A stretch of DNA of 64,000 nt from Bacillota bacterium (lineage in GTDB: Bacteria; Bacillota; SHA-98; UBA4971). Each line of letters starts with the position of its first letter. Position 1 is the stretch's first letter. Positions 3,146 through 35,062 of the stretch are shown here, piece after piece. The notes beneath the pieces were generated by a model. It saw nothing but the letters and a program-made list of their open reading frames with translations, made no database searches and was not told where the DNA came from. A program made the position numbers and the translations under genes. The DNA lies in contig DUSX01000003.1 of NCBI GenBank assembly GCA_012842395.1, positions 1-64,000 of the forward strand, in the 5' to 3' direction.

Positions 3146-4111
3146 ATGAAGGGCGGTAAGTTCACGATTGCGCTCGCCCTGATACCCGGGCTCTTAGCTG
3201 CCGTCATGACCTATGTATACGTCAACAACGCGGCAAAGCCCAAACCTGTGGAGGTCAAGAACGTCCCGGTGGTGGCCGCCAAAGCGACCATACCGCCGCG
3301 CACCAAGATCACGCCGGACATGATCTATGTGAGGGAGATGCCGGAGAGCGCCATCCACGCGAGGACGGCGCGCGCGGCGGAACAAGTGGTGGGCCTCTTT
3401 ACCAAGTACGAGATACTCGAGGGCGAGCCCATTATCATGGACAGGCTGTTCGGCCAGAATGAGCCCGTGGGCCTCGCGTCCTCAGTCCCGCGGGACAAGC
3501 GCGCTGTGACCATTCCGGTGAACGAGGTGGTGGGCGTGGCGGGGTTCGTGAAGCCCGGGGACCGTGTGGACGTCGTGGCCACGGTTGACGGAACGGATGA
3601 GACCGGGGACATGGCTTTCACAGTGCTCCAAGACGTGGAAGTCCTCGCCGTGGCGCAGGACACCGAGGATACAAGCCAGGGCAAGGCCAAGGTGTCGACC
3701 AGTGTCACCCTGGCAGTGACCCCCTCTGAAGCAGAGAAGCTCGCCCTCGCCGAGGACATGGGCCAACTGCGTCTGGCGCTCCGACCGGTGGTTGCCTCAA
3801 CGACGAAGAGCTCCGGCATAGTCGCCCGGGATCTCCTCAAAGAGGTTAAAGGTTGGTCGCCTCCCAAATCGGCAAGCGAGAGCACCCCGCGGTCCGGTGC
3901 ACCTGTGGTCTCCCCTGGGGATACATCCCAGGGACCCGCCGTGACCATAACGCGCCAGGCTCCCCCAACCCCTGTGGCGCACGGGCCGTCATCGCTTCCT
4001 TCTCAGCTTGCCGAGAAGCCGATTTCCGAGCCTGAGGTGGTGGAGGTAATCAAGGGAACGCAGAGGACCTTCGTCACCCTGAGTGACGGCGGGGAGGCGA
4101 CCAAACAATGA
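3146..4111 (+). CDS. cpaB: Flp pilus assembly protein CpaB/RcpC
   Basis: A 321-residue protein with one N-terminal membrane anchor (residues 7-27), a SAF domain at about 40-105 (VVAAKATIPPRTKITPDMI), then the RcpC/CpaB core (AVTIPVNEVVGVAGFVKPGDRVDVVATV). CpaB is a periplasmic pilus-assembly factor thought to work with the secretin. The tail is Pro/Ser-rich and low in complexity. The last bases overlap the secretin start (ATGA at 4108), which fits tight coupling of the two partners. The 115-base gap before it holds only a short hairpin. Confidence 0.92.
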   Translation: MKGGKFTIALALIPGLLAAVMTYVYVNNAAKPKPVEVKNVPVVAAKATIPPRTKITPDMIYVREMPESAIHARTARAAEQVVGLFTKYEILEGEPIIMDRLFGQNEPVGLASSVPRDKRAVTIPVNEVVGVAGFVKPGDRVDVVATVDGTDETGDMAFTVLQDVEVLAVAQDTEDTSQGKAKVSTSVTLAVTPSEAEKLALAEDMGQLRLALRPVVASTTKSSGIVARDLLKEVKGWSPPKSASESTPRSGAPVVSPGDTSQGPAVTITRQAPPTPVAHGPSSLPSQLAEKPISEPEVVEVIKGTQRTFVTLSDGGEATKQ

Positions 4112-6501: not shown

Positions 6502-6506
6502 CGGCC

Positions 6507-7823
6507 ATGCCGGAAGAGAGAATCAAGATCCTCATAGTGGACGATGTGGCCGAGACCCGTGAGAACCTCAGGAAGCTGCTGTCGTTCGGGCAGGGGTTCA
6601 TCGTGGCAGGCGAGGCCGAGAACGGCAAGGAGGCGATCGCTCTAGCGAAGAGGCTCAGGCCCGATGTGATCCTCATGGACATCAACATGCCGGTGATGGG
6701 CGGCATAGAGGCGACCGAGGCGATCTCCGTGGAGGTTCCGACCACCACTGTCATCATCATATCGGTGCAGGGGGAGTCGGAGTATCTTCGAGAGGCGATG
6801 GCGGCCGGTGCACGGGACTACCTCATAAAGCCCTTTTCCAGTGACGATCTCATCAACACGATTCGACGGGCGTACGAGATGGACGCCAAGCGGCGGGCAA
6901 GGTTCGCGCCTGTGCCGATAGCCCAGCGTAAGGAGGGGAAGATCGTCGCGGTATTCAGCACGAAGGGCGGCGTGGGGAAGACCACCATAGCCACCAACCT
7001 CGCGGTCGAGCTCGCAAGCCATAGCCACAAGAACGTGGTGTTGATGGACCTGGACCTTCAGTTTGGCGACGTGGCCATCATGCTCGACACGGTTCCGATC
7101 AGGACCATTGCCGACATCGCGAAGGAAGACGAGATCGATTCGGAGCTCGTGGAGGCGTGCCTAGTCACTCACAAATCGGGGGTTAGAGTGCTCTCATCGC
7201 CATTGCGTCCGGAGCAGGCGGAGATAGTCAACGCCAAGCACGTCGAGGCCATTCTAACGCTCCTTGCCGAAGCCTACGATTTCATAGTCGTGGATATGCC
7301 GCAGGGGCTAAACGACACCACCCTTGCGGCGCTCGACGCGGCTGACAAGATCTTGCTTGTCACGACGCTCGAGCTTCCGGCCATCAAGAACGCCAGGCTA
7401 TGCCTGGAGATCATGGACGCCCTGGGATACGACGAAGACAAGGTCAAGCTCGTCGTGAATCGCTCTTCGCGGGACATCGGCCTTAGCATAGACGAGACCG
7501 AGAAGACCCTGCGCAGGCCGGTGGACGTTCACATCCCGAGCGATGGCAGGGTTGTCGTGCCATCTGTCAACAAAGGCGTGCCGTTTGTGACTAGCGCCCC
7601 GTCGGCGAGGATATCGCAGACCATACGCGATCTCGCGCAGGCGATCGGCGCCGGTGACGGCGATGACGCGGTCCCGGACGCGCTGGCGGGTCGCAAGGTC
7701 GCGGCGGCAGGCGGTGGCCAGGCAGACATAGTTGCGATGGCGGCTACGGAAGGCCACAGCGCAGGCGCGAGGCGACGTCTCGGGATCTCAGGGCGGATCT
7801 TCAGCATTTTCACGGGTGGGTGA
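6507..7823 (+). CDS. tadZ: TadZ/CpaE localisation ATPase with N-terminal receiver domain
   Basis: A 438-residue fusion of a CheY-like receiver (about residues 4-118) and a MinD/ParA-type ATPase (about 145-375). The receiver keeps the full phosphorylation set: Asp12/Asp13, Asp58 in MDINMP, Ser86 and Lys108. The ATPase has the deviant Walker A KGGVGKTT at 153-160. CpaE proteins place the pilus machine in the cell. Many have a degenerate receiver, so an intact one suggests real phosphorelay input here. A GGGAGGTG site decides ATG 6507 rather than GTG 6498. The C-terminal 60 residues are low complexity. No partner kinase lies nearby. Confidence 0.92.
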   Translation: MPEERIKILIVDDVAETRENLRKLLSFGQGFIVAGEAENGKEAIALAKRLRPDVILMDINMPVMGGIEATEAISVEVPTTTVIIISVQGESEYLREAMAAGARDYLIKPFSSDDLINTIRRAYEMDAKRRARFAPVPIAQRKEGKIVAVFSTKGGVGKTTIATNLAVELASHSHKNVVLMDLDLQFGDVAIMLDTVPIRTIADIAKEDEIDSELVEACLVTHKSGVRVLSSPLRPEQAEIVNAKHVEAILTLLAEAYDFIVVDMPQGLNDTTLAALDAADKILLVTTLELPAIKNARLCLEIMDALGYDEDKVKLVVNRSSRDIGLSIDETEKTLRRPVDVHIPSDGRVVVPSVNKGVPFVTSAPSARISQTIRDLAQAIGAGDGDDAVPDALAGRKVAAAGGGQADIVAMAATEGHSAGARRRLGISGRIFSIFTGG

Positions 7824-7832
7824 GCGTGACCC

Positions 7833-9341
7833 ATGTCACTTCAGGCACGGTTGGAGAAAGCGCGGCAAGTGCAAAGCGTGCAACAGGTGAAGCAGGGACA
7901 GGCAAAGCCGGTGCAGGCGGGTTTGGCGCCAGTGCGGGGCGGGCAAGGACCGCTGCATGCCGCCGCTCAGGCGGAGGACAGGGTGCTCCGGGTGCTGGAC
8001 TCGGCGCGATTGGACGGCGGGTCGGCGGCTGTGCAAGTCGAATCCGGGCCCGTCATGCCGCGCGAGGACCCGTACGCAGCTCTTAAAGAGAAAATCCATG
8101 AGAGGCTCGTAAAGGAGATAGACAAGGAGCTGCTCCGGAAGACCGACTCTCCGGCGGACCGACAGAAGCTGGCCAGCGAAGTGGAGGTGGTGGCGTCCAA
8201 GGTCCTCGATGAGGAACCCCTGCCTCTCATTCGCTCCGAGCGAGCACAGGTGATCTCCGAGGTCATCGACGATGTGCTCGGTCTCGGGCCCATAACCCCG
8301 CTCCTCGAAGATGACTCGGTGTCAGAGATAATGGTCAACGGCCCGAACAATGTGTATGTGGAGCGTGGCGGGAGGATAGAGCGGGCGAGAGTGTGCTTCC
8401 GCAGCGCGGACCATGTGATGCACATAATAGAAAGGATCGTGTCACCTCTTGGTCGGCGGATTGACGAGGCCAGCCCGATGGTGGACGCAAGGCTCCCGGA
8501 CGGGTCCCGGGTGAACGCGATCATCCCCCCGCTGTCGCTGGTTGGTCCTTGCATCACCATCCGGAAGTTCTCGCGAGAGCCATTCACCATAGATGACTTG
8601 GTCAGGTTCGGCACTCTGACGCGGGAAATGGCTCAGTTCCTCGAGGGCTGTGTGAAGGCGAGGCTCAACATCGTGGTGTCGGGTGGGACCGGCAGCGGCA
8701 AGACGACCACCCTGAACGTGCTCTCGTCGTTTATCCCGCCGGACGAGCGGATAGTCACTATCGAGGACGCCGCGGAACTGCAGCTTCGGCAGGAGCACGT
8801 GGTGACGCTGGAGGCGCGGCCCCCGAACCTGGAGGGCAAGGGTGCCATCACCATCAGGGATCTCGTGAGGAACGCCCTGCGCATGAGGCCGGACAGGATA
8901 GTCGTAGGGGAGGTGCGGTCGGGCGAGGCGCTGGATATGCTCCAGGCCATGAACACCGGCCACGACGGATCGCTCACCACGGGTCATGCGAACTCTCCCC
9001 GCGACATGCTCGCGAGGTTGGAGACCATGGTGCTCATGGCGGGAATGGATCTGCCGCTACGGGCCATCCGAGAGCAGATCGCTTCAGCCGTCGACCTCAT
9101 AGTGCATCAGGCGAGGCTGCGCGACGGCAGCCGCAAGATCACGCACCTGACCGAGGTCCAGGGCATGGAAGGCGACATCATCACGATGCAGGATATCTAC
9201 GTGTTCGAGCAGACGGGCGTGGACGAGCAGGGCAGGGTGGTCGGGAGATTCAAGGCTACCGGCATTCGGCCGAAGTTCCTGGAGCGGTTCGAGTCCATGG
9301 GAATCCCGCTTCCGTCCGGAATGTTCGTGGATTTCCTGTAA
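7833..9341 (+). CDS. tadA: Tad pilus assembly/retraction ATPase TadA (CpaF)
   Basis: A 502-residue secretion ATPase of the VirB11/PulE superfamily. A Gln/Ala-rich N-terminal tail is followed by the TadA N-terminal domain (VISEVIDDVLGLGPITPLLEDDSVSEIMVNG) and the catalytic domain, with Walker A GGTGSGKTT at about 284-292, the Asp box RIVTIEDAAEL and the His-box segment TGHDGSLTTGHAN. It acts as a cytoplasmic hexamer that drives assembly of Flp pilins through TadB/TadC. It lies 9 bases behind tadZ in the same operon. Confidence 0.96.
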   Translation: MSLQARLEKARQVQSVQQVKQGQAKPVQAGLAPVRGGQGPLHAAAQAEDRVLRVLDSARLDGGSAAVQVESGPVMPREDPYAALKEKIHERLVKEIDKELLRKTDSPADRQKLASEVEVVASKVLDEEPLPLIRSERAQVISEVIDDVLGLGPITPLLEDDSVSEIMVNGPNNVYVERGGRIERARVCFRSADHVMHIIERIVSPLGRRIDEASPMVDARLPDGSRVNAIIPPLSLVGPCITIRKFSREPFTIDDLVRFGTLTREMAQFLEGCVKARLNIVVSGGTGSGKTTTLNVLSSFIPPDERIVTIEDAAELQLRQEHVVTLEARPPNLEGKGAITIRDLVRNALRMRPDRIVVGEVRSGEALDMLQAMNTGHDGSLTTGHANSPRDMLARLETMVLMAGMDLPLRAIREQIASAVDLIVHQARLRDGSRKITHLTEVQGMEGDIITMQDIYVFEQTGVDEQGRVVGRFKATGIRPKFLERFESMGIPLPSGMFVDFL

Positions 9342-9404
9342 GCGGGACGAGGCTTCGAGTTCATTCAGACCCACGGTCAAACCACAATCAAAGGGGAGCA
9401 AGCT

Positions 9405-10400
9405 ATGCCTGGCCAACTGTTTGCAGCCGCTGTATCGGCGCTTGTGTTCATTTCCGTGGCGCTGTTGGCGCACGGCGTCCTTCGCGCGGTCGGCGAACGG
9501 CGCTCTGGAACATGGAGGCTCGCGCGCCTATCTGGGGCCGCGGCCAATGCGCCCGGCAGCCAGCCGCAGGCGGCCGCCGCGGCGGCTAAGAGCAGTTTGC
9601 TCGGCTCGCTGCGCCCGACCCTCGCGTTCGTGGGCAAAGCCTTCGAGAAAGGGGCGTACGCGGCGAAGGTCGAGAGGGAGCTCGCGCGCGCGGATATCCC
9701 GCTTCGCGGCTCGGAGTTCGTGGCACTCAACTTCATGCTCTTGCTGCTCGGGCTGGTCTCAGGGGTCGTTCTCACGAGAAACGCGGCTGTCGCCCTGGCG
9801 CTAGGGATCGCGGGGGGCTTCTTACCCAACGTGTATGTCAAATGGAAGCAGGGGCAACGATTGGGGAGGCTTAACACGCAGATAGCCGACGCGCTCGCCA
9901 TAATGGCGAACTCATTGCGGGCGGGTTACAGTTTCCTCCAAGCCATGGATATGGTATCGAGGGAAATGTCGCCCCCCATATCCGACGAGTTCTCGGCGGC
10001 CATGAAAGAGATGAGCCTGGGCGCGCCCACAGAGGGGGCGCTCACCTCGCTGGTAGACCGGGTTGGCAGCGAGGACCTCGAGCTTGTCGTCACGGCCGTT
10101 CTCATCCAGCGGCAGGTCGGCGGCAACCTTGCGGAAGTCCTCGATAACATTGCCCACACGATCAGGGAGCGAGTGAGGATACGGGGCGAGATCAGGACTC
10201 TCACAGCGCAGGGAAGGCTGTCCGGGATCATCATCGGCGTCCTCCCGGTGGGGCTGGGGATCCTGCTGTATGCCATCAATCCCAGCTATATCACGCTGCT
10301 CTTTACCAACCCAATCGGGAGAATCATGATCGTCATGGCGGTGATTGGCGAGATCATCGGCGCGTTGGTGATTCGGAAAATCGTCACGATCGAGGTCTAG
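9405..10400 (+). CDS. tadB: Tad inner-membrane platform protein TadB
   Basis: A 331-residue type II secretion system F-domain protein. It has an N-terminal helix, a pair of helices near residues 100-150, the conserved cytoplasmic F segment (IADALAIMANSLRAGYSFLQAMDMVSREM and VTAVLIQRQVGGNLAEVLDNIAHTIRER) and two C-terminal helices. TadB and TadC form the membrane platform on which TadA works. AAAGGGGAGC precedes ATG 9405. A 63-base gap follows tadA. Confidence 0.94.
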   Translation: MPGQLFAAAVSALVFISVALLAHGVLRAVGERRSGTWRLARLSGAAANAPGSQPQAAAAAAKSSLLGSLRPTLAFVGKAFEKGAYAAKVERELARADIPLRGSEFVALNFMLLLLGLVSGVVLTRNAAVALALGIAGGFLPNVYVKWKQGQRLGRLNTQIADALAIMANSLRAGYSFLQAMDMVSREMSPPISDEFSAAMKEMSLGAPTEGALTSLVDRVGSEDLELVVTAVLIQRQVGGNLAEVLDNIAHTIRERVRIRGEIRTLTAQGRLSGIIIGVLPVGLGILLYAINPSYITLLFTNPIGRIMIVMAVIGEIIGALVIRKIVTIEV

Positions 10401-10435
10401 TCCGGGAGGATTGACACAAGGGGAGGGGCTGACGG

Positions 10436-11353
10436 GTGGCCCTTTTGGTATCGGCGCTGGTATTTGTGAGTGTGACATCGGTCACCATGTGGTCCATGGG
10501 CTTGACGCGGCGTGAGCCCACCGCGGACGAGCGGCTCAAACGGCTCGCTGTCCTCACGCGCGTGCCCAGCGAACGCGAGAAGAAGCTCGCGCGGCCGCTT
10601 GGGGAGCGGCTGTTCGGCCCGGTTCTGCAGTCCATCAACAATCTCGTGGTGTCGGTCACCCCGAAGCACATAGTCGATGCGGTCAAGAACAAGCTCGACG
10701 CTACCGGGAACCCGTGGAACATGACCCCGGGTGACTACATTCTGATGCGTGTCGTGACGCTCGCGATCCTCCCGATCGCGGCGTTCGGGCTGGCGCTTGG
10801 CCTCGGCCCGAGCACCGCCCTGCTCCTGGCCTTCGTGGTTGCGGCCCTGGGGTGGCTTGTCCCGGAGATGATGATGCAATCAAAAAGGAAGGAGCGCGAG
10901 AAGCAGATCCGGAAGTCCCTCCCCGACGTGCTCGACCTCTTGACTGTGAGCGTGGAAGCGGGGCTCGGGTTCGACGCAGCCCTGGCAAAGGTCGTTGAGA
11001 GGAAGAAGGGCCCGCTCGCTGACGAGTTCGCCTTGCTTCTGCAGGAGATCCGCATGGGCAAGTCGAGAAGGGACGCCCTGCGCGAGGTCTCGGAGCGTGT
11101 GAAGATCGACGACATCACCTCGTTCATCGCGTCCGTGATACAGGCGGACCAGCTCGGTGTGAGCATCGCTAACATCCTTCGCATTCAGTCGGCGCAAGTG
11201 CGCACGAAGCGGCGCCAGCAAGCGGAGGAGGCGGGCATGAAGGCTCCCATCAAAATGCTCTTCCCGCTCATTTTCTTCATATTCCCCACGCTTTTCGTGG
11301 TGCTCCTCGGGCCCGCGATAATCCAGGTCGCCACGACATTCATGGGTCTGTAG
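10436..11353 (+). CDS. tadC: Tad inner-membrane platform protein TadC
   Basis: A 305-residue F-domain protein paired with TadB. The signature LPDVLDLLTVSVEAGLGFDAALAKV is followed by IASVIQADQLGVSIANILRIQSAQVR and a long final membrane helix (MLFPLIFFIFPTLFVVLLGPAII). The start is GTG 10436 behind AAGGGGAGGGG. It is the last gene of the tad operon; no tadD-type lipoprotein gene follows it. Confidence 0.94.
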   Translation: MALLVSALVFVSVTSVTMWSMGLTRREPTADERLKRLAVLTRVPSEREKKLARPLGERLFGPVLQSINNLVVSVTPKHIVDAVKNKLDATGNPWNMTPGDYILMRVVTLAILPIAAFGLALGLGPSTALLLAFVVAALGWLVPEMMMQSKRKEREKQIRKSLPDVLDLLTVSVEAGLGFDAALAKVVERKKGPLADEFALLLQEIRMGKSRRDALREVSERVKIDDITSFIASVIQADQLGVSIANILRIQSAQVRTKRRQQAEEAGMKAPIKMLFPLIFFIFPTLFVVLLGPAIIQVATTFMGL

Positions 11354-17822: not shown

Positions 17823-18746
17823 ATGGATATGGAAACAATCCTTCGCGAAGTCCTAGACGAGATCAGGAGCGTGAAGTCCGATGTACGCGAGCTGAAAGAG
17901 GGCCAGACCAGGCTTGAGACTCGCTTCGTAGGGCTAGAGAAAGCTCAGGCCGGGCTTGAGACGAGGTTCGCAGGTCTTGAACAAGCTCAAGCTGCGTTCC
18001 AGACGCGGCTTGGGGAGCTTGCAGAAGGTCAGGCCAAGCTTGAGACGCGCTTCGGAGAGCTCGCGCAGGGCCAAGCTAAGCTTGAGACGCGCTTCGGGGA
18101 GCTCGCGGAAGGTCAGGCTAGGTTCGAGGTGCGGGTCGCAGGGCTCGAAGAGGGGCAGGCCAGGCTTGAGACGCGTTTCGCAGGGCTGGAGAAAGCTCAG
18201 AGTAGGCTTGAGACACGTTTCGTAGGACTTGAGCAAGCTCAAGCTGGGCTTGAGGGGCGGTTCGTAAGGCTTGAGAGGGCTCAAGCCGGACTAGAGACAC
18301 GGTTCATAGGGCTCGGGGAGGCCCAAACGAGGCTCGAGACCCGGTTCGCAGGGCTTGAGGAAGGCCACGCCAGGCTTGAGGCCCGGTTCGCAGGGCTCGA
18401 GGAAAGCCACGCTAGACTTGAGACGCGCTTTGCAGAATTCGGAGAAGCTCAAGCCAGGCTTGAGAACCGGGTTGGGGAGCTTGCAGAAGGCCAAGCCAGG
18501 CTCGAGACGCGCGTTGGAGGGCTGGAGGCGGGTCAGGCGAGGCTTGAGACGTGCGTTGAAGACCTCAAGGCAGGCCAGGTCCGGCTCGAGAACCGCATGG
18601 AACGGGTAGAGGCCGGGCAGCTTCGTATCGAAAGCCGACTCGAGACCGAGGTTATCGATAAGATCCGCGTTCTGTTCGACGCCTTTCAACTGCACCAGGA
18701 AAGACTCGACCGTCACGAGGAGAAGCTTGAAGCCCTTCGAAGGTGA
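17823..18746 (+). CDS. Coiled-coil protein of seventeen 14-residue repeats
   Basis: A 307-residue protein with no signal peptide or membrane segment. After a 27-residue start, seventeen consecutive 14-residue units run from residue 28 to 265 with no insertion or deletion (consensus QARLETRFAGLEEG). A helical tail follows (residues 266-307) that ends LDRHEEKLEALRR. Fourteen residues are two heptads, with hydrophobic Leu, Phe and Leu in core positions, so a long continuous coiled coil is expected. At DNA level this is a 42-bp tandem array. I recognise no family function; similar proteins are often annotated only as coiled-coil. GGGGGC precedes ATG 17823. Confidence 0.85.
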   Translation: MDMETILREVLDEIRSVKSDVRELKEGQTRLETRFVGLEKAQAGLETRFAGLEQAQAAFQTRLGELAEGQAKLETRFGELAQGQAKLETRFGELAEGQARFEVRVAGLEEGQARLETRFAGLEKAQSRLETRFVGLEQAQAGLEGRFVRLERAQAGLETRFIGLGEAQTRLETRFAGLEEGHARLEARFAGLEESHARLETRFAEFGEAQARLENRVGELAEGQARLETRVGGLEAGQARLETCVEDLKAGQVRLENRMERVEAGQLRIESRLETEVIDKIRVLFDAFQLHQERLDRHEEKLEALRR

Positions 18747-19296: not shown

Positions 19297-19449
19297 AGCG
19301 CCTTAGGGAAAAGCAAGAGGCGACCAGCGATCCCACCACACATGTCTAGTCGCCGAGACACTTGCCTCGGACAGTCGTCCGCTCACTTCAGCCGTGTGAT
19401 TGTCAACGAACTTGTCCCGCGCGATGTCTACGCCCGTGGTCGTACGGGT

Positions 19450-19644: not shown

Positions 19645-21444
19645 ATGATGCGCCGGCCGATAGTCTTTGCGGCAGTTGCCGGGTTACTCTTGTTTGGTTT
19701 GGCTGCCATTCCTGCTCGTGGGAACTCCCTCACCGTCTATAGGCTTGATCCACCCAGCGGATGGGTTGAGCTCCCGCCGGTCAATCCATACGCCACGGCG
19801 GTGGGGGAGGGCCCGCTGCAGGGTTGGAGCAACGCGGGGTCGGTGTCCTGGCCGGTGCGGGCGACCGCGACGTTCGAGCCGGACATTGAGAAGGCTGAGC
19901 TTACCGTGGATTTCATCCCCGTCTCGCGGGACATCCGGCCCAACGAGGCTAGGCTCTTCATTGCGCCCCTCGGACAACGCCTGGAGTGGCGGGTTGTGAT
20001 AACGGTGAGGAACCCAAACGACGTGGCGATGAGGGACGTGAGGGTGCGCGACGAATTCGGGCCCGCATTCCGCGTCACGCTGGCGGGGAGACCGCATGGA
20101 GACGCTCGTATCGAGGGTGGCGACCCCAGGGGCAGCCTGCGTCTCCAGGCGGACCTTGTCTGGGACATCGGCGACCTTGCGCCGGGAGAGGCGGCCAGGG
20201 CGGAGGTGACCGCGGTCACCGGCCGGGATGGCCACGGCAACCAGCAGTTCTCGCGCGAGGGAATATACTCGATTGATACCGGTGCCCGCCTCACATATAC
20301 CATTGCCGGGAAACCGCAGATCCGGAACGCCGCGTCCGGGAGCGTCATCGCTCGCAAGCGGGCAGACGCGCTGCGTGGCGACGGAACACCATTCGACGTG
20401 ACCCCTGCGCCTATCGCAGGTGAGGCTGCCGGTGGTGAGTCCCCCGTCGTCCCCGTAGGCCCGCTCGTCGCCGGCGGAGGCCTGCAGGTTGGCGGGGCCA
20501 GCATCGTCAGGGACAGCGGCGAGGCATCGGGCGGGGTAGGCACGCGGGACATCAGCAGGACTGACCCGCGTCTCATCGTAACGGCCGCGGCCAAGACGCC
20601 AAACATCGCCGAAGACGCGGGACAATTCGTCGTTCCATGCGGCGAGTATGCCGAGTGGGAGGTCACTGTGAGCATCTCGTGCACCGCTGACTCCCGCCTC
20701 AGAAGGTGGCAGGTGGGTCTGGAGTTCGGGCCGGAGCTTTGGGTCGAAGAGGTCCCAGGCTCCAGGGACATTGTGGCTCATCCCGACCCAGGCACGGGTC
20801 CTCCTGTCGAAATAGCGCGGGATCCCGCCAGTGGCAAGTTCAAGGTGACTTGGAATTCGTCCTGGTCCGGGGTACTGCCTTTCGGCGCGTCAGGCCAGTT
20901 CAAGCTGAAGGTGTACACTGCGGAACCAAGCGGGTATGAAAGCCCTGGGACGTTTACCTTCTGTGACAACATGACCCTAAGCTATGAGACGGTGTCCGAG
21001 TCGGGCACGGTCGCCCTGAGTCCGCCCATATTGATACAGGCTGAGGGTGGACACGCGAACGTGTCGCTCGGCGCCACCCGGCTCGATTGGCGAGTGCGGA
21101 AGGGCGGCACATACGCGGCACTCGCGACGGAAATGAGCTTCACCGGCACTGGCAAGCTTGCGATCCAGTTCGATGGCTTCGCCGATCTTGCACGCCTCGA
21201 CGGCGGGGCAGCCACCATCGCGACTTGGTACGGCTTCGGCGACGATCTTGGAGCGGTGGAGTCTAGCGGCTGGATCGCAGCTTGCGACCTGAACCTGGAC
21301 GCCAATTCACGTGGCCCGATAAGACTTGATCCAACAACTCCTGCCCTTCTTCGGATGTGGTCAAAGATAACCGTGGGCGAGGAAGACTCGTCATGCGAGT
21401 ACGAGGACGTGGGGGTGGTCACCTTCATCGCGAGCAACAACTAG
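19645..21444 (+). CDS. Exported protein with DUF11-like repeats and a shared C-terminal domain
   Basis: A 599-residue secreted protein of unrecognised function. It has a signal peptide (residues 1 to about 26), a region with GQRLEWRVVITVRNPNDVAMRDVRVRDEFGPAF and WDIGDLAPGEAARAEVTAV that resembles DUF11-type adhesive repeats, a Gly-rich linker, and a second related region near 325-455 with paired cysteines. The C-terminal domain (about 474-597) contains WRVRKGGTYAA, FDGFADL, GWIAACDLN and SSCEYEDVG. The same domain forms most of the next protein. GAGGAGGG at 19631 fixes ATG 19645; the frame is open to 19342 but the extension has no signal. It is probably the largest surface component of the cluster. 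Confidence 0.75.
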   Translation: MMRRPIVFAAVAGLLLFGLAAIPARGNSLTVYRLDPPSGWVELPPVNPYATAVGEGPLQGWSNAGSVSWPVRATATFEPDIEKAELTVDFIPVSRDIRPNEARLFIAPLGQRLEWRVVITVRNPNDVAMRDVRVRDEFGPAFRVTLAGRPHGDARIEGGDPRGSLRLQADLVWDIGDLAPGEAARAEVTAVTGRDGHGNQQFSREGIYSIDTGARLTYTIAGKPQIRNAASGSVIARKRADALRGDGTPFDVTPAPIAGEAAGGESPVVPVGPLVAGGGLQVGGASIVRDSGEASGGVGTRDISRTDPRLIVTAAAKTPNIAEDAGQFVVPCGEYAEWEVTVSISCTADSRLRRWQVGLEFGPELWVEEVPGSRDIVAHPDPGTGPPVEIARDPASGKFKVTWNSSWSGVLPFGASGQFKLKVYTAEPSGYESPGTFTFCDNMTLSYETVSESGTVALSPPILIQAEGGHANVSLGATRLDWRVRKGGTYAALATEMSFTGTGKLAIQFDGFADLARLDGGAATIATWYGFGDDLGAVESSGWIAACDLNLDANSRGPIRLDPTTPALLRMWSKITVGEEDSSCEYEDVGVVTFIASNN

Positions 21445-21819
21445 CGCGCCTCAGGTACTTCACGTAACGCAGTCGCGGGTGCTCCGCGCAACACAGGCGA
21501 GCGCGCCCGGTGCTGAGCGCGGGCGGTGCCGAGGCTAGCGCGGGGTCCCGCGAATCCTCTGGGCGGTCGGGGCGCCCGGCGCAGCGTCTCGATGCGCCGC
21601 GATGACTTGACTAGCGTGCCAGATGAGCCTTGGGCATCGGGAAGGACTAGCAAGGCTGAGCGGGGCTCGGGGTGACTCAAGAGGAAGGCCGTGGAATGCA
21701 GGTTCGCAGACTGTGGGCTGGGAATCATAACCAGGTAGGTCCAACTCCCAAGAGCGTCGGGAGACGCTTCGGAGGCTCAGAAGGCCTCAAAACACCTACA
21801 AGGAGGTTGAATCCTGAAT
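21445..21819. other. Intergenic stretch between the two exported proteins
   Basis: No gene was found. AGCGTC/GACGCT around 21754-21769 forms a small tetraloop hairpin, and AAGGAGGT at 21800 is the ribosome site of the next gene. GC-rich minus-strand frames here have no product. Confidence 0.4.
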
Positions 21820-22536
21820 ATGAAGAGGATCATCGTGATGCTTGCGCTGATGGCCGTGCTTTCGGTACCGGCAGCGGCTCTGGCGTACAACCCGGGAGTA
21901 GCTCTGCCGAGTGGCGCCACAGAGGTTGAAGCCTTTGAATGGAACGGCACTGTGTGGTCAAGCATGTGGGTGAACGGAGCAGGCGCGCCCGCCGCGAACG
22001 CCCGGTGCTGGTCCAGCACGCCTGATAGCGGTGCTTGCAACAAGCAGAATTGGGTCATCAACATCACGAACCACGCATCGGTCGCCCAGTGGATCGATTG
22101 GTCCATTGGCGGCACGCGATGGGACTGGCGCATCAGGAAGCCCGGGACGTACGCCGCTGACTGCATAAACTTCACCATAAAGAGCAACAACGACGTCGCG
22201 GTGAACTTCGACGGGTTTGCTGACCTTGAATACCTGGAACAAAGCGCCGGGGTGAAACAGACCATCGATACCTACTACTCCTACGGTGGCTCCATTGAAG
22301 CGGCTCAGTCGAACGGCTGGATACGGGCTGCGGACCTGAACAACGCCGATTTCATATTCCCCGACGGCTCGGCTCTTCATTCAGGGCTCAACTACAAGCT
22401 CTGGAACAAGATCGTGGTCGAGAACTGCAACTCGTCCTGCGAGTACGAGGATACTGCCACCATAACGCTTACGGTCCGGAACATGAAGCACTGGATTGAT
22501 CCTGAGACTGGCAACTTCAAATCCGATCAGACCTGA
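21820..22536 (+). CDS. Small exported protein sharing the FDGFADL/SSCEYED domain
   Basis: A 238-residue protein with a clear signal peptide (MKRIIVMLALMAVLSVPAAALA, cleavage near 22). The mature part is rich in Trp, Asn and aromatic residues. Residues about 95-222 align with the end of the preceding 599-residue protein: WDWRIRKPGTYAA, VNFDGFADLEYL, SNGWIRAADLN and NSSCEYEDTATITL. Two cysteine pairs (one near 62-72, one in CNSSC) suggest disulfide bonds outside the cytoplasm. Spacing from AAGGAGGT to ATG is about 12 bases. With its size and abundance-type leader it could be the main subunit of a surface structure. No known family was recognised. Confidence 0.8.
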   Translation: MKRIIVMLALMAVLSVPAAALAYNPGVALPSGATEVEAFEWNGTVWSSMWVNGAGAPAANARCWSSTPDSGACNKQNWVINITNHASVAQWIDWSIGGTRWDWRIRKPGTYAADCINFTIKSNNDVAVNFDGFADLEYLEQSAGVKQTIDTYYSYGGSIEAAQSNGWIRAADLNNADFIFPDGSALHSGLNYKLWNKIVVENCNSSCEYEDTATITLTVRNMKHWIDPETGNFKSDQT

Positions 22537-22679: not shown

Positions 22680-22710
22680 GATCAGGGGTGGCGGGTCGCC
22701 ACCCCTGATC
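22680..22710 (+). repeat. Perfect 14-bp hairpin before the chaperone-like gene
   Basis: GATCAGGGGTGGCG pairs perfectly with CGCCACCCCTGATC around a GGT loop. It ends 7 bases before the ribosome site of the gene at 22733 and is not followed by a T-tract, so it is not a standard terminator. It could slow transcription, stop 3' decay of the upstream message or adjust the ratio of subunit to chaperone. Confidence 0.8.
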
Positions 22711-22732: not shown

Positions 22733-24532
22733 ATGATGGTTCCTCATTCATCACGGTGTGACGGCCCTGATGGGTCCAGCCATGGCACGAGCAGGGCTTG
22801 CCGGATCACCCGGATCACGTCGTACGTGTTTCTTGCCTCGGTCCTCTTGTGGACGTTCGTGAGTTGCTTCGTCGGCGTGGCGCACGCTCAGGTATCCATC
22901 AGCCTGACCCCGCTCCTCATTGAGCTCACCGGAGCTCCAGGCGAAACGAAGACCTTCAACATCCTGCTCGTGAACGAGAGCAAGACGGCGACCGCGCACT
23001 TCCGAGTATTCGCCTCGGATGTGGTGCAGAAACCGAACGGCGACTATCGCGTCGTCGAGCCGGGCGAGTCAGAGTACTCGTGCGCCAAATGGATAAGGCT
23101 GTCCAAGGAAGAAGCCACATTGGGCCCAGGCGAAGCGCTTTCGGTGGACTGCAAGCTTGCGATTCCTAGAGGTACATACGGCGGGAGATTCGCGGCGGTC
23201 GTATTCGAGCTCGTGCCGGAGGAGAGGACGGGAGAAGAAGCTTTCGCATCCACCAAGTTCCTTCAGAGGTTCGCCACGGTGGTAGAACTCGCCATCCCTG
23301 CGCCGAGGGTGCGAAAAGCCGTCACCATCGCAGGATTCAGTGTGAAGGCTGCCGCGGACGACCCGAGGTATGCTGCCGCTTACGGCAAGGATGCCTTGAT
23401 CCTCATAGGCGAGGTCAGGAACGAAGGCAACACACACGTGTTCGCACGCGGCTACCTGACTCTCAGAGACGGTTCCGGAAAGCGCCTGCGCCAGATCCCG
23501 CTCGGCTCGGGCCGGGGTTTGGTGCTGCCCGAGACCACCGTCAACCTTGTCTCGGTGCTCCCCTCCGGCCTCGCCCCAGGCAACTACATCGCGGACATCG
23601 CCGTGAAGTATGGCGGAACGAGGCCAGCCCTGGCAAAGGTGCCGTTCACGCTAGCTCCAAGCGGGGCCGAGGCAAGGCGCGTAGAGGGCGGGGCGAGGCT
23701 TGCCCCGTTCAACGTGCAGCCAGCCGAACTCGACCTAACCTACCCGCCCGGCGCGGTGGCCGCGCGGTCCATCGTGGTCGAGAACAAGTCCGATGTCCCC
23801 ATCCATGTGGAGGGGAGAGCGTTGCCGCTCGTGTACGATGAGGAAGGCGAGTTAGTCCAGGACGAGGCCGCGCTCGCTGCCGCACCAGCCAAATGGAGCT
23901 GTGCCGGCTGGATTGAGCTGCGGCCTGCAACCATGGACATCCGACCGGGCGGCAAACAAATGGTTCGTCTCATGATCAATATCCCCAAGGACCAGGCCGG
24001 CAGCAGGTATGCGAACCTCGTATTCACCGGAACACCTGTGGAAGACCAAGGAGGCGCAAGGCAGGATGCAGCGGCAGCATCGCCGGCAGCGTCCCCGGCG
24101 TCCCCCGCATGGGCCGGGGAGGCCGGCGCCCTGGTTTTCCTGACCGTCGGCAAGCAGGCGGAGAAGCTCGCGGAACTTGGGGAACTCAAGATCGAGGACG
24201 GAGGCCCTTCTGTAGGCTGGATATTCAGCACAGCGCTCAAGAACACCGGCGCCACCCACTTGAAACCGCAGGTCACGTTCGGCATCAAGAGACATATCGT
24301 CCCCGAAAGCGTCCCGGGGATCGAGTATGTCGGTCCGGGCTCGTGGCAAGAGGTCGATTCCGTGGATCTCGGTGAGCTCGATAGCATAGTCCTCCCTGGC
24401 GGTACGAGGCTGATTCGAGCGGGTTACGCGCGTGCTCTTGAGCCTGGGAGGTACATGGTGGAGGTTACCGTAAAATACGGCGGCAAGGCGCCCCTATATG
24501 TGTCCGGGGAGTTTGAGGTGAAACAGCCGTGA
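22733..24532 (+). CDS. Exported chaperone-like protein, two tandem immunoglobulin-fold halves
   Basis: A 599-residue secreted protein: long signal peptide (cleavage near AHA-Q at about 51), then two halves of about 270 residues with the same layout. Matching pieces are LTPLLIELTGAPGE and VQPAELDLTYPPGA, CAKWIRLS and CAGWIELR, IPRGTYGGRFAAVVFE and IPKDQAGSRYANLVFT, and two copies of VKYGG near the ends of the halves. The layout resembles periplasmic pilus chaperones and DUF916-type proteins (inference from pattern). It may escort or cross-link the exported proteins encoded just upstream. The start is ATG 22733 behind AGAGGAGA. Confidence 0.75.
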   Translation: MMVPHSSRCDGPDGSSHGTSRACRITRITSYVFLASVLLWTFVSCFVGVAHAQVSISLTPLLIELTGAPGETKTFNILLVNESKTATAHFRVFASDVVQKPNGDYRVVEPGESEYSCAKWIRLSKEEATLGPGEALSVDCKLAIPRGTYGGRFAAVVFELVPEERTGEEAFASTKFLQRFATVVELAIPAPRVRKAVTIAGFSVKAAADDPRYAAAYGKDALILIGEVRNEGNTHVFARGYLTLRDGSGKRLRQIPLGSGRGLVLPETTVNLVSVLPSGLAPGNYIADIAVKYGGTRPALAKVPFTLAPSGAEARRVEGGARLAPFNVQPAELDLTYPPGAVAARSIVVENKSDVPIHVEGRALPLVYDEEGELVQDEAALAAAPAKWSCAGWIELRPATMDIRPGGKQMVRLMINIPKDQAGSRYANLVFTGTPVEDQGGARQDAAAASPAASPASPAWAGEAGALVFLTVGKQAEKLAELGELKIEDGGPSVGWIFSTALKNTGATHLKPQVTFGIKRHIVPESVPGIEYVGPGSWQEVDSVDLGELDSIVLPGGTRLIRAGYARALEPGRYMVEVTVKYGGKAPLYVSGEFEVKQP

Positions 24533-24699
24533 CAGCCGCGCCCGACTCGAGCCGCGCCCAACTTTGTCGCCAGCGGCGGCCAGGCGGCCCCTGTTTCAGG
24601 CCGTGCGATGCAAAGTGGCGGTTTAGGCGCCGGGGCGGACTCGCGGCTCTGGGCCATGAGCCCTGGAGAGTTTAGGCTGACTTGGAGGAGGGGTCACAG

Positions 24700-25941
24700 A
24701 TGTCTGAATCAAGAGGTCTCGGGTTGAGCGGGAGAGCCCCGGCAAGGAGGCTCGGGCTTGGGCTTGTGCTGGCGCTCGCGCTGGCGATTGCTACGGTAGC
24801 CCTGCCGCAGGCGTCGATGGCGCAGGAGATCCTGGTGACCAACGTTTTCGACGGCGCCGACATCCTGAGCGTTTTGCGCGACATCTCCGCGCAGACGGGG
24901 GTCAACATCATGGCCGATGCCACGGTGCAGGGCTGGGTCACGGCGGAATTGCGCGACGTCCCCCTGGACAAGGCGCTTGAGATGATCGTTGGGCCGCTCG
25001 GCTATACCTTTGTCAAGGTGGGCGACTACTACGTCGTGGGGTCGGCAGATTCTAAGAACCCCAGTTTCCCGCTCCTCACCACCACAGAGGTGGTCAAGCT
25101 GAATTACGTCAAGGCGGAAAACGCCGCTAAACTGCTCTCGGATTTCTTTGCACCATATGTGAAGGTGGGCGCTACTGACAACGTTCTCGTAGTCACCGCC
25201 CCGGCCAGCCTGGTGCAGCGCATCAAGTCGGACATCGAGCGGATCGATCGCCCGGCACCGCAGGTCATGTTGGAGGCCGTCGTCATGGAGATATCCTCTG
25301 ACAGCGGAAAGTCCTTCGGGGCTGACTGGCGCTATGAGGGCAGCGGTGGCCAGGCTGATCCGACGGTGCCTTCCTCGGGCTTCGTGGACTTCGTGTCGGG
25401 AATCTGGGGGGCCAAGTACAACGTGGCTGGCGGTCTCGAGCACATCATCGCGTCCATGAAGGTTCTCCTGGATTCTGGGAAGGCACAGATACACGCGACC
25501 CCAAGGATCGCTACGGTTGACGGCGAGCCTGCCGAGATATTCCTTGGCAAGGACCGCTATTTCGCAGTCACGACGGGCAGTAACAGCGACACGTCCACGC
25601 GGCTGGAGTCCATACGGACGGGCATTTCGCTCAAATTCACCCCGCGTGTATCGGAGACGGGCGAGATCCTCGTGAAGATCGAGCCTGAGGTAAGCGACGC
25701 GGTGGAGACCTCGGACGGCCTGCCTCTCGTGAACAGGCGTCAGGCCTCGACGTCGATCAGGGTGAAGGATGGGGAGACCATAGTCATCGGCGGCCTGAAG
25801 CTGAAATCCGAGTATGAGGTCAAGTCAAAGGTGCCGCTGCTCGGCGATATGCCGGTCCTTGGTTTGCTCTTCAGCAGCACGAGGAAGGCGTCCACCGAGA
25901 CGGAGGTCGTGATCTTCATAACGCCAAGGATCATGCAATAG
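24700..25941 (+). CDS. PilQ/GspD-like secretin
   Basis: A 413-residue exported protein: signal peptide (cleavage SMA-QE near 36), an STN-type domain (about 40-100, FDGADILSVLRDISAQTGVNI), one secretin N-domain (about 115-175, VVKLNYVKAENAAKLLSDFF) and a secretin barrel (about 185-412) ending with VKDGETIVIGGLKL and KVPLLGDMPVLGLLF. It is short for a secretin, with one N-domain only, and is unrelated in layout to the Tad secretin at 4108. It lies in a cluster with no secretion ATPase or F-type platform protein, so it may borrow a motor or form a passive gate. GGAGGAGGGG sets ATG 24700. Confidence 0.9.
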   Translation: MSESRGLGLSGRAPARRLGLGLVLALALAIATVALPQASMAQEILVTNVFDGADILSVLRDISAQTGVNIMADATVQGWVTAELRDVPLDKALEMIVGPLGYTFVKVGDYYVVGSADSKNPSFPLLTTTEVVKLNYVKAENAAKLLSDFFAPYVKVGATDNVLVVTAPASLVQRIKSDIERIDRPAPQVMLEAVVMEISSDSGKSFGADWRYEGSGGQADPTVPSSGFVDFVSGIWGAKYNVAGGLEHIIASMKVLLDSGKAQIHATPRIATVDGEPAEIFLGKDRYFAVTTGSNSDTSTRLESIRTGISLKFTPRVSETGEILVKIEPEVSDAVETSDGLPLVNRRQASTSIRVKDGETIVIGGLKLKSEYEVKSKVPLLGDMPVLGLLFSSTRKASTETEVVIFITPRIMQ

Positions 25942-26177: not shown

Positions 26178-27197
26178 GTGACTGCAACGACGGCATGTCG
26201 CGGGCCCGGTCTCCGGTCCGCCGGAGCGCACGGGTCTGCGGTCACCAACGGGACGGGAGTTGGAATCAAGGCGATGAGCAGGCGGCTTGCAGCGGCATTC
26301 CTGGCGACGCTGTGCGCTATGACGCTGCTCCATGCGGTCGCATCCGCTGAAGAGTACGGCTTCGTAGAGCCATTTGGGTTTGCGGACGCCCGCTTGATGG
26401 CCATGGGATACTCGTACGTGGCGGTATGGGACGAGCCCAACCCGCTCTACTCGAATCCCGCTGCGTTCGGCCTCCGCACGGAACGACTTGCGCTCACGTT
26501 TGGGTCGGCCTGGGGAGAGGGCGCCGGGCCGACTGACTTCAAGTTCATCGCCCTCTCCGACATGGACCGCGGCGGCGGGGCGGGTGGGTTCGCGTGGGGG
26601 CACTATGAGTGGCATGACGGGGACGCCCTCTTCTCGGGCAACACGTTCAACTACTCGGTGGGGAAGTCCTTCGCCAAGTGGGGCGCGCTCGGGTTTGGCG
26701 TGCGCTACCTTCGCGGAGCGGCCGCCGATGCAGCGGCTGACGATCCTAACGGGGACTTGCGCTGGCGCGGTCTTGCCACCGACGCCGGCCTCGTGGTGAA
26801 GCACAATGCGATCTCGCTCGGAGTCGTCGCCCGGGACGTAACCAGCACGCGACTGGTCTTCGACGATGGCACCGCCGTTACCCTGCGACCGAGCTATTCT
26901 GCGGGCTTGAGCCTGAGACTCTCGGCCGGGACGGTGGTTGCCGTCGACGCTCACCGGGCTTCACGGCCCGAGGGTGGGCTTGAGACCTACACTTACACAG
27001 GTGGCTTCGAAGGGTGGCTCACGCCTCATATCGCCCTAAGGGGCGGGATCATCGTGGGAGACGGCGGGGGCCTCGATGTGAAGGCGTACACAGGCGGGAT
27101 CGGCTTGCGGTTCGGCGATTTCGAGATGTCCTACGCAGTGCTCACAGGCGAAGAGCAGGGCAAGAGACAGTGCATAAGCCTTACCAGGCGCTTCTAG
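26178..27197 (+). CDS. Outer-membrane beta-barrel protein, PorV/UPF0164-like
   Basis: A 339-residue protein with a hydrophobic signal segment (MSRRLAAAFLATLCAMTLLHAVASA, cleavage before EEYGF) followed by alternating polar/hydrophobic strands and many Gly and aromatic residues. ARLMAMGYSYVAVWDEPNPLYSNPAAFGL resembles the N-terminal plug-like motif of PorV/PorQ and related barrels. The protein ends in LTRRF, the terminal Phe favoured by the BAM machinery. GTG 26178 has a strong AGGAAGGAG site, giving a 32-residue extension before the signal; ATG 26274 is the alternative. It supports the presence of an outer membrane. Confidence 0.72.
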   Translation: MTATTACRGPGLRSAGAHGSAVTNGTGVGIKAMSRRLAAAFLATLCAMTLLHAVASAEEYGFVEPFGFADARLMAMGYSYVAVWDEPNPLYSNPAAFGLRTERLALTFGSAWGEGAGPTDFKFIALSDMDRGGGAGGFAWGHYEWHDGDALFSGNTFNYSVGKSFAKWGALGFGVRYLRGAAADAAADDPNGDLRWRGLATDAGLVVKHNAISLGVVARDVTSTRLVFDDGTAVTLRPSYSAGLSLRLSAGTVVAVDAHRASRPEGGLETYTYTGGFEGWLTPHIALRGGIIVGDGGGLDVKAYTGGIGLRFGDFEMSYAVLTGEEQGKRQCISLTRRF

Positions 27198-27386: not shown

Positions 27387-28541
27387 CTAGCCCTTGCCTA
27401 GGATGCCGTATCGCTTGAGCTTCTTGTACAAACCCGACCGCGATATATTGAGCATCCTGGCTGTCTTGGCCCTGTTGTTACCGGCGGCACGGAGCGCTGC
27501 CATGAGGATCGCGCTCTCGTGGGCGGCGAGGGACTCGTCGAGCCCCAGTCCTTGAGATGTCGGCGCATCCTCCACACGCGAGCCAACAGTCTCCCAGAGG
27601 TACTCCGGAATGTCTTCTGGTAGGATCTCGGTGTCTTCCGCGAAGTTGAGGGCGCGCTCGAGGACGTTCTCAAGCTCGCGAAGATTGCCGGGCCAATGAT
27701 AGCTCAGAAACGCGTTCATCACCGTGGGATGAACCGACGTCACCGACGTATGGCAGACCTTGTTGAGCCTCCCCAGGAAACACTCAACAAGCTCCGGCAT
27801 GTCCTGCCTCCTTTCGCGCAGCGGCGGGATGGTTATCGTGATCACGTCCAGCCGGTAATAGAGGTCTTCTCGGAATGCCCCCGATGCTACCATCTGGCGG
27901 AGATTCTTGTTGGTGGCCGCGATAAGCCTGGCATCCGCCGGTATACCGCTAGTGCCGCCCAACCTCTCTACTACGCGCTCCTGGACCACGCGCAGGAGTT
28001 TCGCCTGGAGCGTGAGGGGCATGTCACCGACCTCATCCAGGAAGAGGGTGCCTCCTGAAGCTTGTTCGAACTTCCCAGGCTTTCCGCTCTTGAGCGCGCC
28101 TGTGAACGCGCCTGCCTCGTACCCGAATAGCTCCGACTCCATCAAGGCCTCCGGGACAGCGGCGCAGTTCACCACGACGAATGGCCCGTGCGCCCGGCTT
28201 CCGGCCTCATGGATGGCTCGGGCGAAGACCTCCTTTCCAACGCCCGTCTCGCCAAGGAGGAGGACATTGGAACTGCCGCGTGCCGCACGCCGGGCGAGGA
28301 TGCGGGCGGCGGCGATGCCGGGGCTGGAGCCGATTATCGCCGCGAAGGGATCGCGCTTGCTGTTCCGATCGTGTTCAGACTCTTGGCTGCTGTCTGGACC
28401 GGTGCTCCTGTCCCGGTCCTGGGGCTGGCCCGTCTCGCTGTCCCGGCGGTAGGCGCCGTCACAGCCACAGGCATAGTTGCGGTCGTGTCCCTTCCCCGGA
28501 GGATTCACATGATACATGGCAGGTAGCATGTCCTTTGACAC
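27387..28541 (-). CDS. Sigma-54-dependent transcriptional activator without sensor domain
   Basis: A 384-residue enhancer-binding protein. The AAA+ domain has Walker A GETGVGKE at 97-104, the sigma-54-contacting GAFTGA at 144-149, Walker [13 protein letters not shown] and an arginine-finger region ([11 protein letters not shown]). A Fis-type helix-turn-helix ends the protein ([26 protein letters not shown]). The first 65 residues are charged and low in complexity, with no receiver, GAF or PAS domain, as in PspF-type activators controlled by partner proteins. It converges on the exported-protein cluster, whose first gene has a sigma-54-type promoter. Start GTG 28541 is uncertain; nearby ATGs are possible. 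Confidence 0.92.
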
Positions 28542-33940: not shown

Positions 33941-35062
33941 CTACGCCACTTCCCTCTTTACGCTCTCTATCACTACTTCATGCGCAATCGCCCAGACAAA
34001 CCCCAACAGCTCCCGTGCCACTGCGACTACCACGACCTGTTTTGTCTTTCCCCTGCCCAGCATCTTCCTGTACTTGCGATTGAGCCGCATCTGCGCCTTC
34101 CAGGAAATTGCTCTAATCTCCTGCGATAGGCCCTCCTGGCGCTTTTTGAGCACAACCCCTACCTTCGGGGTGTGACGATAATTCCAGGCTGACTGCACTA
34201 TCACCCGGCGCACGTGAGCATTGCCGCTTTTGGTGATCGACCCCCGCCGCTCTTTTGCGCCACTCGAATACTCGCTTGGCATAACACCTGCGTAGGACAT
34301 GAGCTGTTTCGCATTCTCAAACCGGGTGATGTCCCCAAGCTCTGCCACCAGAGTCGCTGCTGTGATGAGATCCACCCCTCTAAGTGCCTGTAGCGCCTTT
34401 ATCACCCTCTGGTCAGCAAATGCCTCAACATACGCCGCTATCTCTTGCTCGAACCGCTCTATCCTGCTCCTCGCCTCATCGACCGCATGAATGTATTCTG
34501 CTAGCACTACTTGCTGCGCCGCTTGCTCGAAACGTATGCCCTCAAGCCACCGACGGTGTTTATCAGTCCATGCCCGTATCCCTTCAGGAGCCCTTAGCTT
34601 TAACCTCAAGAGGAACTTGCTCAATTGGTGCCGCTTCCTCAAAAGATCCTGACAGGCGTCTTCCCTTGCCCTCAAAAGATCCCTCAAAGTCTCCTGACGC
34701 TCATCAGGAACCCATACCGGCGTAAGATCCCCACTTCGCAGCAGCCTTGCAAGTTTCTTAGCATCCCTCCGGTCCGTCTTGACTCGCTCACCCGGCTTCC
34801 TCGGAACCAGTGACGGCGCAACTACCATACACGAACAGCCCATCGCTATAAGCTGCCTGTAAATCCCATACCCACAAGGGCCAGCCTCATAGCAGAACCT
34901 CAGGCCCCCTGGTTCGCCCAGTTTCCTTACCAGCTTGGCTATTGCCTGAGGCGTGTTAGGGATCACCCCGAGCCCCTCCGCGTCCTTCTCATCCCTACCT
35001 GCTACCGCAACCGCGATCGAATCCTTGTGAACATCCAGCCCGACGAATGTGGTATACTTCAT
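33941..35062 (-). mobile_element. IS110-family transposase (DEDD recombinase)
   Basis: A 373-residue intact transposase. The N-terminal RuvC-like DEDD domain has Asp10 in GLDVHKDS, Glu59 in CYEAGPCGYG and the pair Asp97/Asp100 in KTDRRDAKKLARLL. The C-terminal Transposase_20 domain has ALRGVDLITAATLVAELGDITRF, YAGVMPSEYSSGAKERRGSITKSGN and the conserved serine region. Its codon usage and lower GC differ from neighbouring genes, which suggests recent arrival. IS110 enzymes recombine DNA under a structured bridge RNA encoded in the element's non-coding end. No second copy is in the window. Confidence 0.95.

Follow-up and report, generated by a model that had tools for sequence, protein, structure and literature searches.

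Two neighboring genes on a contig of a Bacillota bacterium encode a large and a small exported protein that look alike over part of their length, which raises the question of what the common part is and whether the two proteins could be building blocks of a surface polymer. The original prediction, made from the DNA alone, proposed that the proteins share a domain and that the large one is a tip or anchor and the small one a main subunit. The stretch analyzed (hereafter the window) comprises 64,000 nucleotides, and features within it lie on the forward strand unless marked (-). The large protein (19645-21444, in a reading frame that opens at 19342) has 599 residues and the small protein (21820-22536) has 238; both carry a signal peptide, as read by eye from the sequence. 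BLASTP aligned residues 469-598 of the large protein with residues 84-221 of the small protein at 40% identity (E 4e-27), and the Smith-Waterman score of the domain alignment was 242, compared with a mean of 36 (sd 4.9, maximum 58) for 500 shuffles. With these values, and with the recurrence of the pair described below, the shared domain is confirmed. The four motifs that first drew attention to it, WRxRKxGTYAA, FDGFADL, GWIxAxDLN and SSCEYED, all fall inside the aligned block, which is C-terminal in the large protein (21049-21438). The expected extent has to be corrected for the small protein: the module is ~130 residues long and covers little over half of the chain (residues 87-220; 22078-22479) rather than most of it, with the remainder forming an N-terminal extension of ~60 residues and a C-terminal extension of ~18 residues. 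Ahead of its copy, the large protein has a DUF11/Ig-like N-terminal region, with a weak DUF11 match at residues 118-192.

Sequence searches did not connect the domain to a known family. No Pfam or NCBIfam model matched it, neither protein has an accepted family in these collections, profile searches of the PDB yielded nothing usable, and sequence profiles gave no link to any pilin family. Fimbrial and PapD_N models were likewise absent among the matches listed when 24 small proteins and as many products of the downstream chaperone-like gene were scanned against Pfam. The wide profile search, which was proposed at the outset as a way to expose a widespread enzyme or carbohydrate-binding domain, brought up neither. 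HAD_SAK_1, bacHORMA and SSO1725 were rejected as identities because they were chance-level matches to single members, and a phage origin was rejected because viral contigs held no relatives and viral folds gave no significant match.

The domain occurs in a minority of the genomes sampled from the phylum. A search with the small protein detected it in 22 genomes of a sample of 299 (20 clear and 2 marginal cases), and a profile search found it in 25 of 398. Nearly all of these 25 genomes carry at least two copies side by side, almost always as an adjacent large and small pair, and the alignment of the large protein took in 21 relatives. The named relatives are metagenome-assembled Firmicutes genomes, including DTU025, UBA6811, UBA1393, UBA4981 and a Halanaerobiales bacterium. 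Omp85 was detected in all 11 genomes tested, indicating that these bacteria have an outer membrane.

The pair belongs to a conserved operon. In all 20 relative loci that are not cut by a contig end, the large and small genes are followed by a gene for a chaperone-like protein and one for a secretin, and in most relatives the fifth gene encodes a PorV-like barrel. In the window, the chaperone-like, or WxLIP-like, exported protein (22733-24532) has 599 residues, and the secretin (24682-25941, with a probable ATG start at 24700) is short, consisting of an STN/N0 domain, one secretin N domain and the secretin barrel (PF00263, E 1.5e-44; PF03958, E 5.6e-12). The PorV-like outer-membrane barrel (26178-27197, with a possible ATG start at 26274) matches NF033709 at E 1.4e-7, below the cut-off of that model. 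Convergent with the operon is a gene for a sigma-54-dependent activator (27387-28541, (-)), which also lies at the operon 3' end in the nearest relatives (loci L023, L024, L025, L027, L037 and L045) and, judged from its position, may be a regulator. The adjoining activator suggested a sigma-54 promoter upstream of the operon, but pattern matches there were no more frequent than chance and relatives had none upstream; matches to sigma-70 promoters and terminators were also near chance level. Several other features surround these operons. Just upstream in the window is a gene for a 307-residue, highly repetitive coiled-coil protein with LETRFAGLEEGQA-type repeats (17823-18746), and related reading frames occur near the operons of several relatives. 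Two relatives have additional tandem small and chaperone-like genes (L032:9451-11932 and L034:4865-9318), the latter with a second, divergent secretin as well. Further downstream, the window holds an IS110-family transposase gene (33944-35062, (-)).

Structure prediction provided the information on the domain that sequence searches did not. A ColabFold (AlphaFold2) model of the mature small protein (ma0451ba936b4), built from 18 sequences from the window and relative loci, has a mean pLDDT of 84.8. When compared with the PDB by Foldseek, its matches were dominated by chaperone-usher pilins, led by CfaB (E 2.8e-4) and including CS17, CsuA/B, FimA, FimG, the pilin domains of FimH and PapG, and Caf1. 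Other donor-strand filaments appeared as well, namely TasA, TLP-1b, the Sulfolobus 0406 filament and CanA, with the TasA fiber (8aur; rank 9, E 6e-3, TM 0.27) weaker than the best pilins. VIA-align gave a Z score of 8.6 for CsuA/B (rmsd 2.7 over 115 residues) and 8.3 for the tip subunit CsuE. These are fold matches to a predicted model, with Foldseek TM values of 0.3-0.5 and Z scores of about 8-9, and middling Z scores are common for β-sandwiches, with models that have no clear match often reaching 7-8. The pilin reading therefore draws not on any single score but on nearly all matches belonging to one functional class. On this evidence the domain of the small protein is predicted to have the incomplete immunoglobulin fold of pilins.

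The boundaries of the domain fit this prediction. Residues 65-198 of the model align by VIA-align with the pilin domain as far as its C-terminal residue, and the alignment stops at the final residue of the FimH, FimG and PapG chains, which lack a G strand at this place. The C termini of most large proteins lie no more than a few residues from this position, and the large protein in the window ends one residue beyond its copy of the domain. Because the large proteins stop where pilins stop, the alignment suggests that they have no room for a seventh strand of their own and that the domain would need a strand from outside. A possible source lies in the small protein, where residues 23-86 (21886-22077) form an N-terminal extension of the mature chain that precedes the domain, falls outside the pilin match and contains strands in the secondary structure of the model, making it a candidate donor strand. 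Comparison of the N termini of the large and small proteins by hhalign gave a probability of 20% and E 0.001, compared with E 0.64 for a reversed control, a weak indication that several large proteins may begin with a strand-turn-strand resembling the N terminus of the small protein.

The chaperone-like gene points to the same pathway from the other side. Its product consists of two tandem halves, residues 54-307 (22892-23653) and residues 323-599 (23699-24529), each with two domains, and the halves are homologous (hhalign probability 99.9, E 7e-35). A profile of the family matched EfmWxLIP1 in the PDB (E 1.2e-4), and the Pfam model WxLIP_PGBD matched 12 of 24 members, weakly (best 8e-8). The predicted structure (pLDDT 80.7) has WxLIP as its best structural match (Z 15.8, to model residues 272-547, assigned to the second half), and also matches the chaperones of chaperone-usher systems, with Z scores of 12.9 for YadV, 12.7 for CsuC, and 12.5 for both CfaA and Caf1M. 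From this model, the operon is predicted to encode a PapD-like chaperone fold of two immunoglobulin domains, here duplicated. Two adjacent genes thus independently retrieve partner classes of one pathway, with the small gene leading to pilins and its neighbor to chaperones. Each half also contains a pair of strands connected by a loop of low confidence (model residues 99-137 and 372-421) that seems to be placed like the F1-G1 hairpin of chaperones. In WxLIP proteins, a hairpin is predicted by AlphaFold2 to insert into WxL (PMC10599100). No transmembrane segment was seen at the C terminus of the chaperone-like protein in its sequence or alignment. Within the 299-genome sample, the full-length protein (E < 1e-170) and clear domain matches mark one and the same set of 20 genomes, and the next-ranking matches, at E 2e-34 and weaker, are proteins encoded elsewhere that are reduced in length or more diverged.

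The region between the small and chaperone-like genes may bear on subunit dosage. A perfect 14-bp stem-loop (22680-22710) lies between these two genes and shows compensatory changes in relatives, with the arms GATCAGGGGTGGC/GCCACCCCTGATC replaced by the paired arms GAACAGGGGTGGC/GCCACCCCTGTTC in locus L024, and loci L030, L036, L040 and L049 have different stems. Perfect stems with a length of 9 bp or above were found downstream of 9 of 24 small genes, compared with 1 of 21 large, 0 of 24 chaperone-like and 1 of 21 secretin genes, and 0 of 120 shuffles. This concentration after the small gene is as expected if a subunit gene is expressed above its neighbors. The hairpin is a candidate mRNA stabilizer or attenuator, and protection or attenuation of the small-gene transcript by such a stem would be expected of a major-subunit gene.

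How would such subunits cross the outer membrane? The usher family PF00577 was detected in none of 15 genomes, including that of the window, while the E. coli control was detected. The operon itself contains no usher, ATPase, platform protein or type IV pilin. Its outer-membrane channel gene is a true secretin, with PilQ and GspD as best PDB matches. Two more secretins are encoded in the source genome. The first belongs to a T2SS-like cluster 8 kb upstream of the operon in the window (a 797-residue secretin at 4108-6501, a PF00437 ATPase at 7833-9338 and two PF00482 platform proteins at 9405-11350), and the second lies on a different contig in the vicinity of PilB/PilT-type ATPases. In a maximum-likelihood tree, which has some long branches and leaves details within the operon clade unsure, the operon secretins group in a well-supported clade of their own, to which the T2SS-like and T4P-like secretins from the same genomes do not belong.

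Secretins of the operon clade also occur at two loci without the shared domain, in genomes G165 (L060:188-10111) and G123 (L056:1325-9710). Both encode a tandem chaperone-like protein of ~510 residues, a secretin, a large barrel-like protein and several exported proteins of 160-230 residues without a Pfam family, some of which end in pilin-like strands of the form PAGxYxGEIVLTISAP. Because these loci combine chaperone and secretin without the shared domain, the pairing is not tied to one subunit family. Proteins with a single WxLIP/chaperone-like unit (~275-310 residues, with a 454-residue reading frame in L061) are found beside exported proteins of ~170-200 residues at L055:7507-8986, L057:697-2063, L058:7533-9712, L059:426-2212 and L061:6166-8093, and these loci are apparently a simpler relative of the chaperone-like and small-protein module. 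At L078:197-1519 (-), one reading frame fuses the N terminus of a sigma-54 activator to an operon-clade secretin (profile E 1e-155), and is either what a deletion left behind or an artifact in the assembly of genome G254.

We propose, with a probability of roughly 0.6, that the operon encodes a donor-strand surface fiber or short chain in which the small protein serves as main subunit and the large one as adhesin or cap, with the duplicated chaperone folding the subunits and the secretin exporting them. During folding, the immunoglobulin-like domain of the small protein would be completed by a strand of the chaperone-like protein, which would hold the subunits in the periplasm. In the fiber, this completing role would pass to the N-terminal extension of the following small subunit. 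The large protein, with the same domain at its C terminus and a functional head, would cap the fiber as a tip adhesin, or possibly act as an anchor. The dedicated secretin, aided by the PorV-like barrel, would then do the work of an usher and let the fiber through the outer membrane. We infer strand donation, polymerization, the position of the tip and export through the operon secretin in this scheme. For the division of roles first suggested, the pilin-like fold, the strand-bearing extension, the adjoining chaperone-like gene and the hairpins found mainly after the small gene all speak strongly, if indirectly, in favor, with polymer formation itself a matter of interpretation. The strand that large proteins may share with the N terminus of the small protein fits poorly with a simple tip that has no N-terminal extension, so that both tip and anchor suit the large protein. 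A further point against a fiber is that, to our knowledge, secretins do not catalyze donor-strand exchange.

In anatomy the operon resembles chaperone-usher pili such as archaic Csu and class 5 CFA/I. The two have in common the predicted subunit fold, a larger subunit with a C-terminal pilin-like domain, a subunit extended at its N terminus, an operon-encoded PapD-like chaperone and exported components in a diderm cell. In contrast to these pili, the operon has a secretin and no usher, its chaperone is duplicated to four immunoglobulin-like domains, its small subunit has a C-terminal extension that is absent from classical pilins, its subunits have no detectable sequence similarity to known pilins, and its hosts are Firmicutes. 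Without the defining usher, it is not counted as a member of the class. A Firmicutes precedent for donor-strand fibers exists in TasA/TapA of Bacillus subtilis, which has β-sandwich subunits, an N-terminal donor strand and a chaperone-like starter (PMC10151520). The TasA fiber is among the structural matches of the small protein, but TasA is a jelly roll, TapA is a single immunoglobulin domain, and the system has no secretin and a single membrane.

The relationship of the chaperone-like protein to WxLIP invites a different interpretation, in which the operon is a two-membrane counterpart of the WxL clusters, an inserted hairpin ties both the small and the large protein to the WxLIP-like protein in a fixed, non-polymeric surface platform, and the head of the large protein binds a surface or a partner. 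WxL/WxLIP (DUF916-DUF3324) clusters have the same three-part anatomy of a domain-only small protein, a large protein that ends in the domain and a two-immunoglobulin WxLIP (PMC10599100), an analogy that holds for all loci without a contig-end cut. WxL complexes are not described as polymers (PMC10599100), and the EfmWxLIP1, WxLIP_PGBD and best structural matches of the chaperone-like protein all lead to WxLIP. The shared domain, however, is not a WxL domain by either profile or motif count: PF13731 matched none of 24 members (E 0.1) and was found in none of 21 genomes, and two W-x-L motifs occur in just 3 of 24 small proteins. The modeled domain instead resembles pilins, and chains described as WxL are absent from the structural matches listed for the small protein, which still leaves room for kinship. 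Known WxLIP proteins consist of PGBD, HBD and a C-terminal transmembrane helix, whereas the unit here is duplicated, lacks the helix and comes with a secretin gene wherever the locus is complete, with a PorV-like barrel in the operon and outer-membrane genes in the hosts. We consider a WxL-type platform unlikely, although it is the strongest competitor of the fiber.

Export might also be the whole purpose of the operon, with the large and small proteins as secreted or surface cargo of the secretin, the WxLIP-like protein acting only as a chaperone for export and the domain as an export or docking tag rather than a polymer unit. Secretins are established exporters of folded proteins from the periplasm, the operon includes a barrel resembling PorV, a component of type IX secretion, and the C-terminal position of the domain in the large protein recalls that of some export signals. 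A tag, however, would not be expected to account for the greater part of a separate, conserved small protein, to have a pilin-like fold or to come with a partner of pilin-chaperone fold, and this makes cargo export improbable. A further view takes the operon as an offshoot of a type IV pilus or type II secretion system, with the secretin as its PilQ or GspD. The genome does encode T2SS/T4P ATPases, the T2SS-like cluster (4108-11353) lies nearby, and relative locus L036 has T4P-like genes beside the operon. Those settings, however, are already occupied by the two other secretins of the genome, and the operon secretin is shorter than GspD and PilQ and has no ATPase, platform protein or type IV pilin as partners in the operon. 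Its place in a separate clade led us to reject its identification as PilQ or GspD, and an offshoot of this kind is very improbable.

The donor-strand fiber, in turn, may be one instance of something broader. We tentatively suggest, at slightly below even odds, an usher-free chaperone-secretin pathway in which donor-strand fibers are served by a tandem WxLIP/PapD-type chaperone and a dedicated secretin clade, and which has at least two subunit families, one defined by the shared domain and one represented by the small proteins of L056 and L060, which look unrelated to it. Donor-strand fibers are known either with an usher, in Gram-negative bacteria, or without an outer membrane, as for TasA. 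In a literature search of incomplete coverage, we found no description of chaperone-type fibers exported by a secretin. Such a system would also annotate for the first time a domain that 25 of the 398 genomes sampled from the phylum carry. If the proposal is correct, these diderm bacteria would combine the pilin and chaperone parts with a secretin in place of the usher, giving a new export route for donor-strand fibers and a test of whether an usher is needed to drive strand exchange, and the operon could link the chaperone-usher pili of Gram-negative bacteria with the WxL/WxLIP complexes of Gram-positive bacteria.
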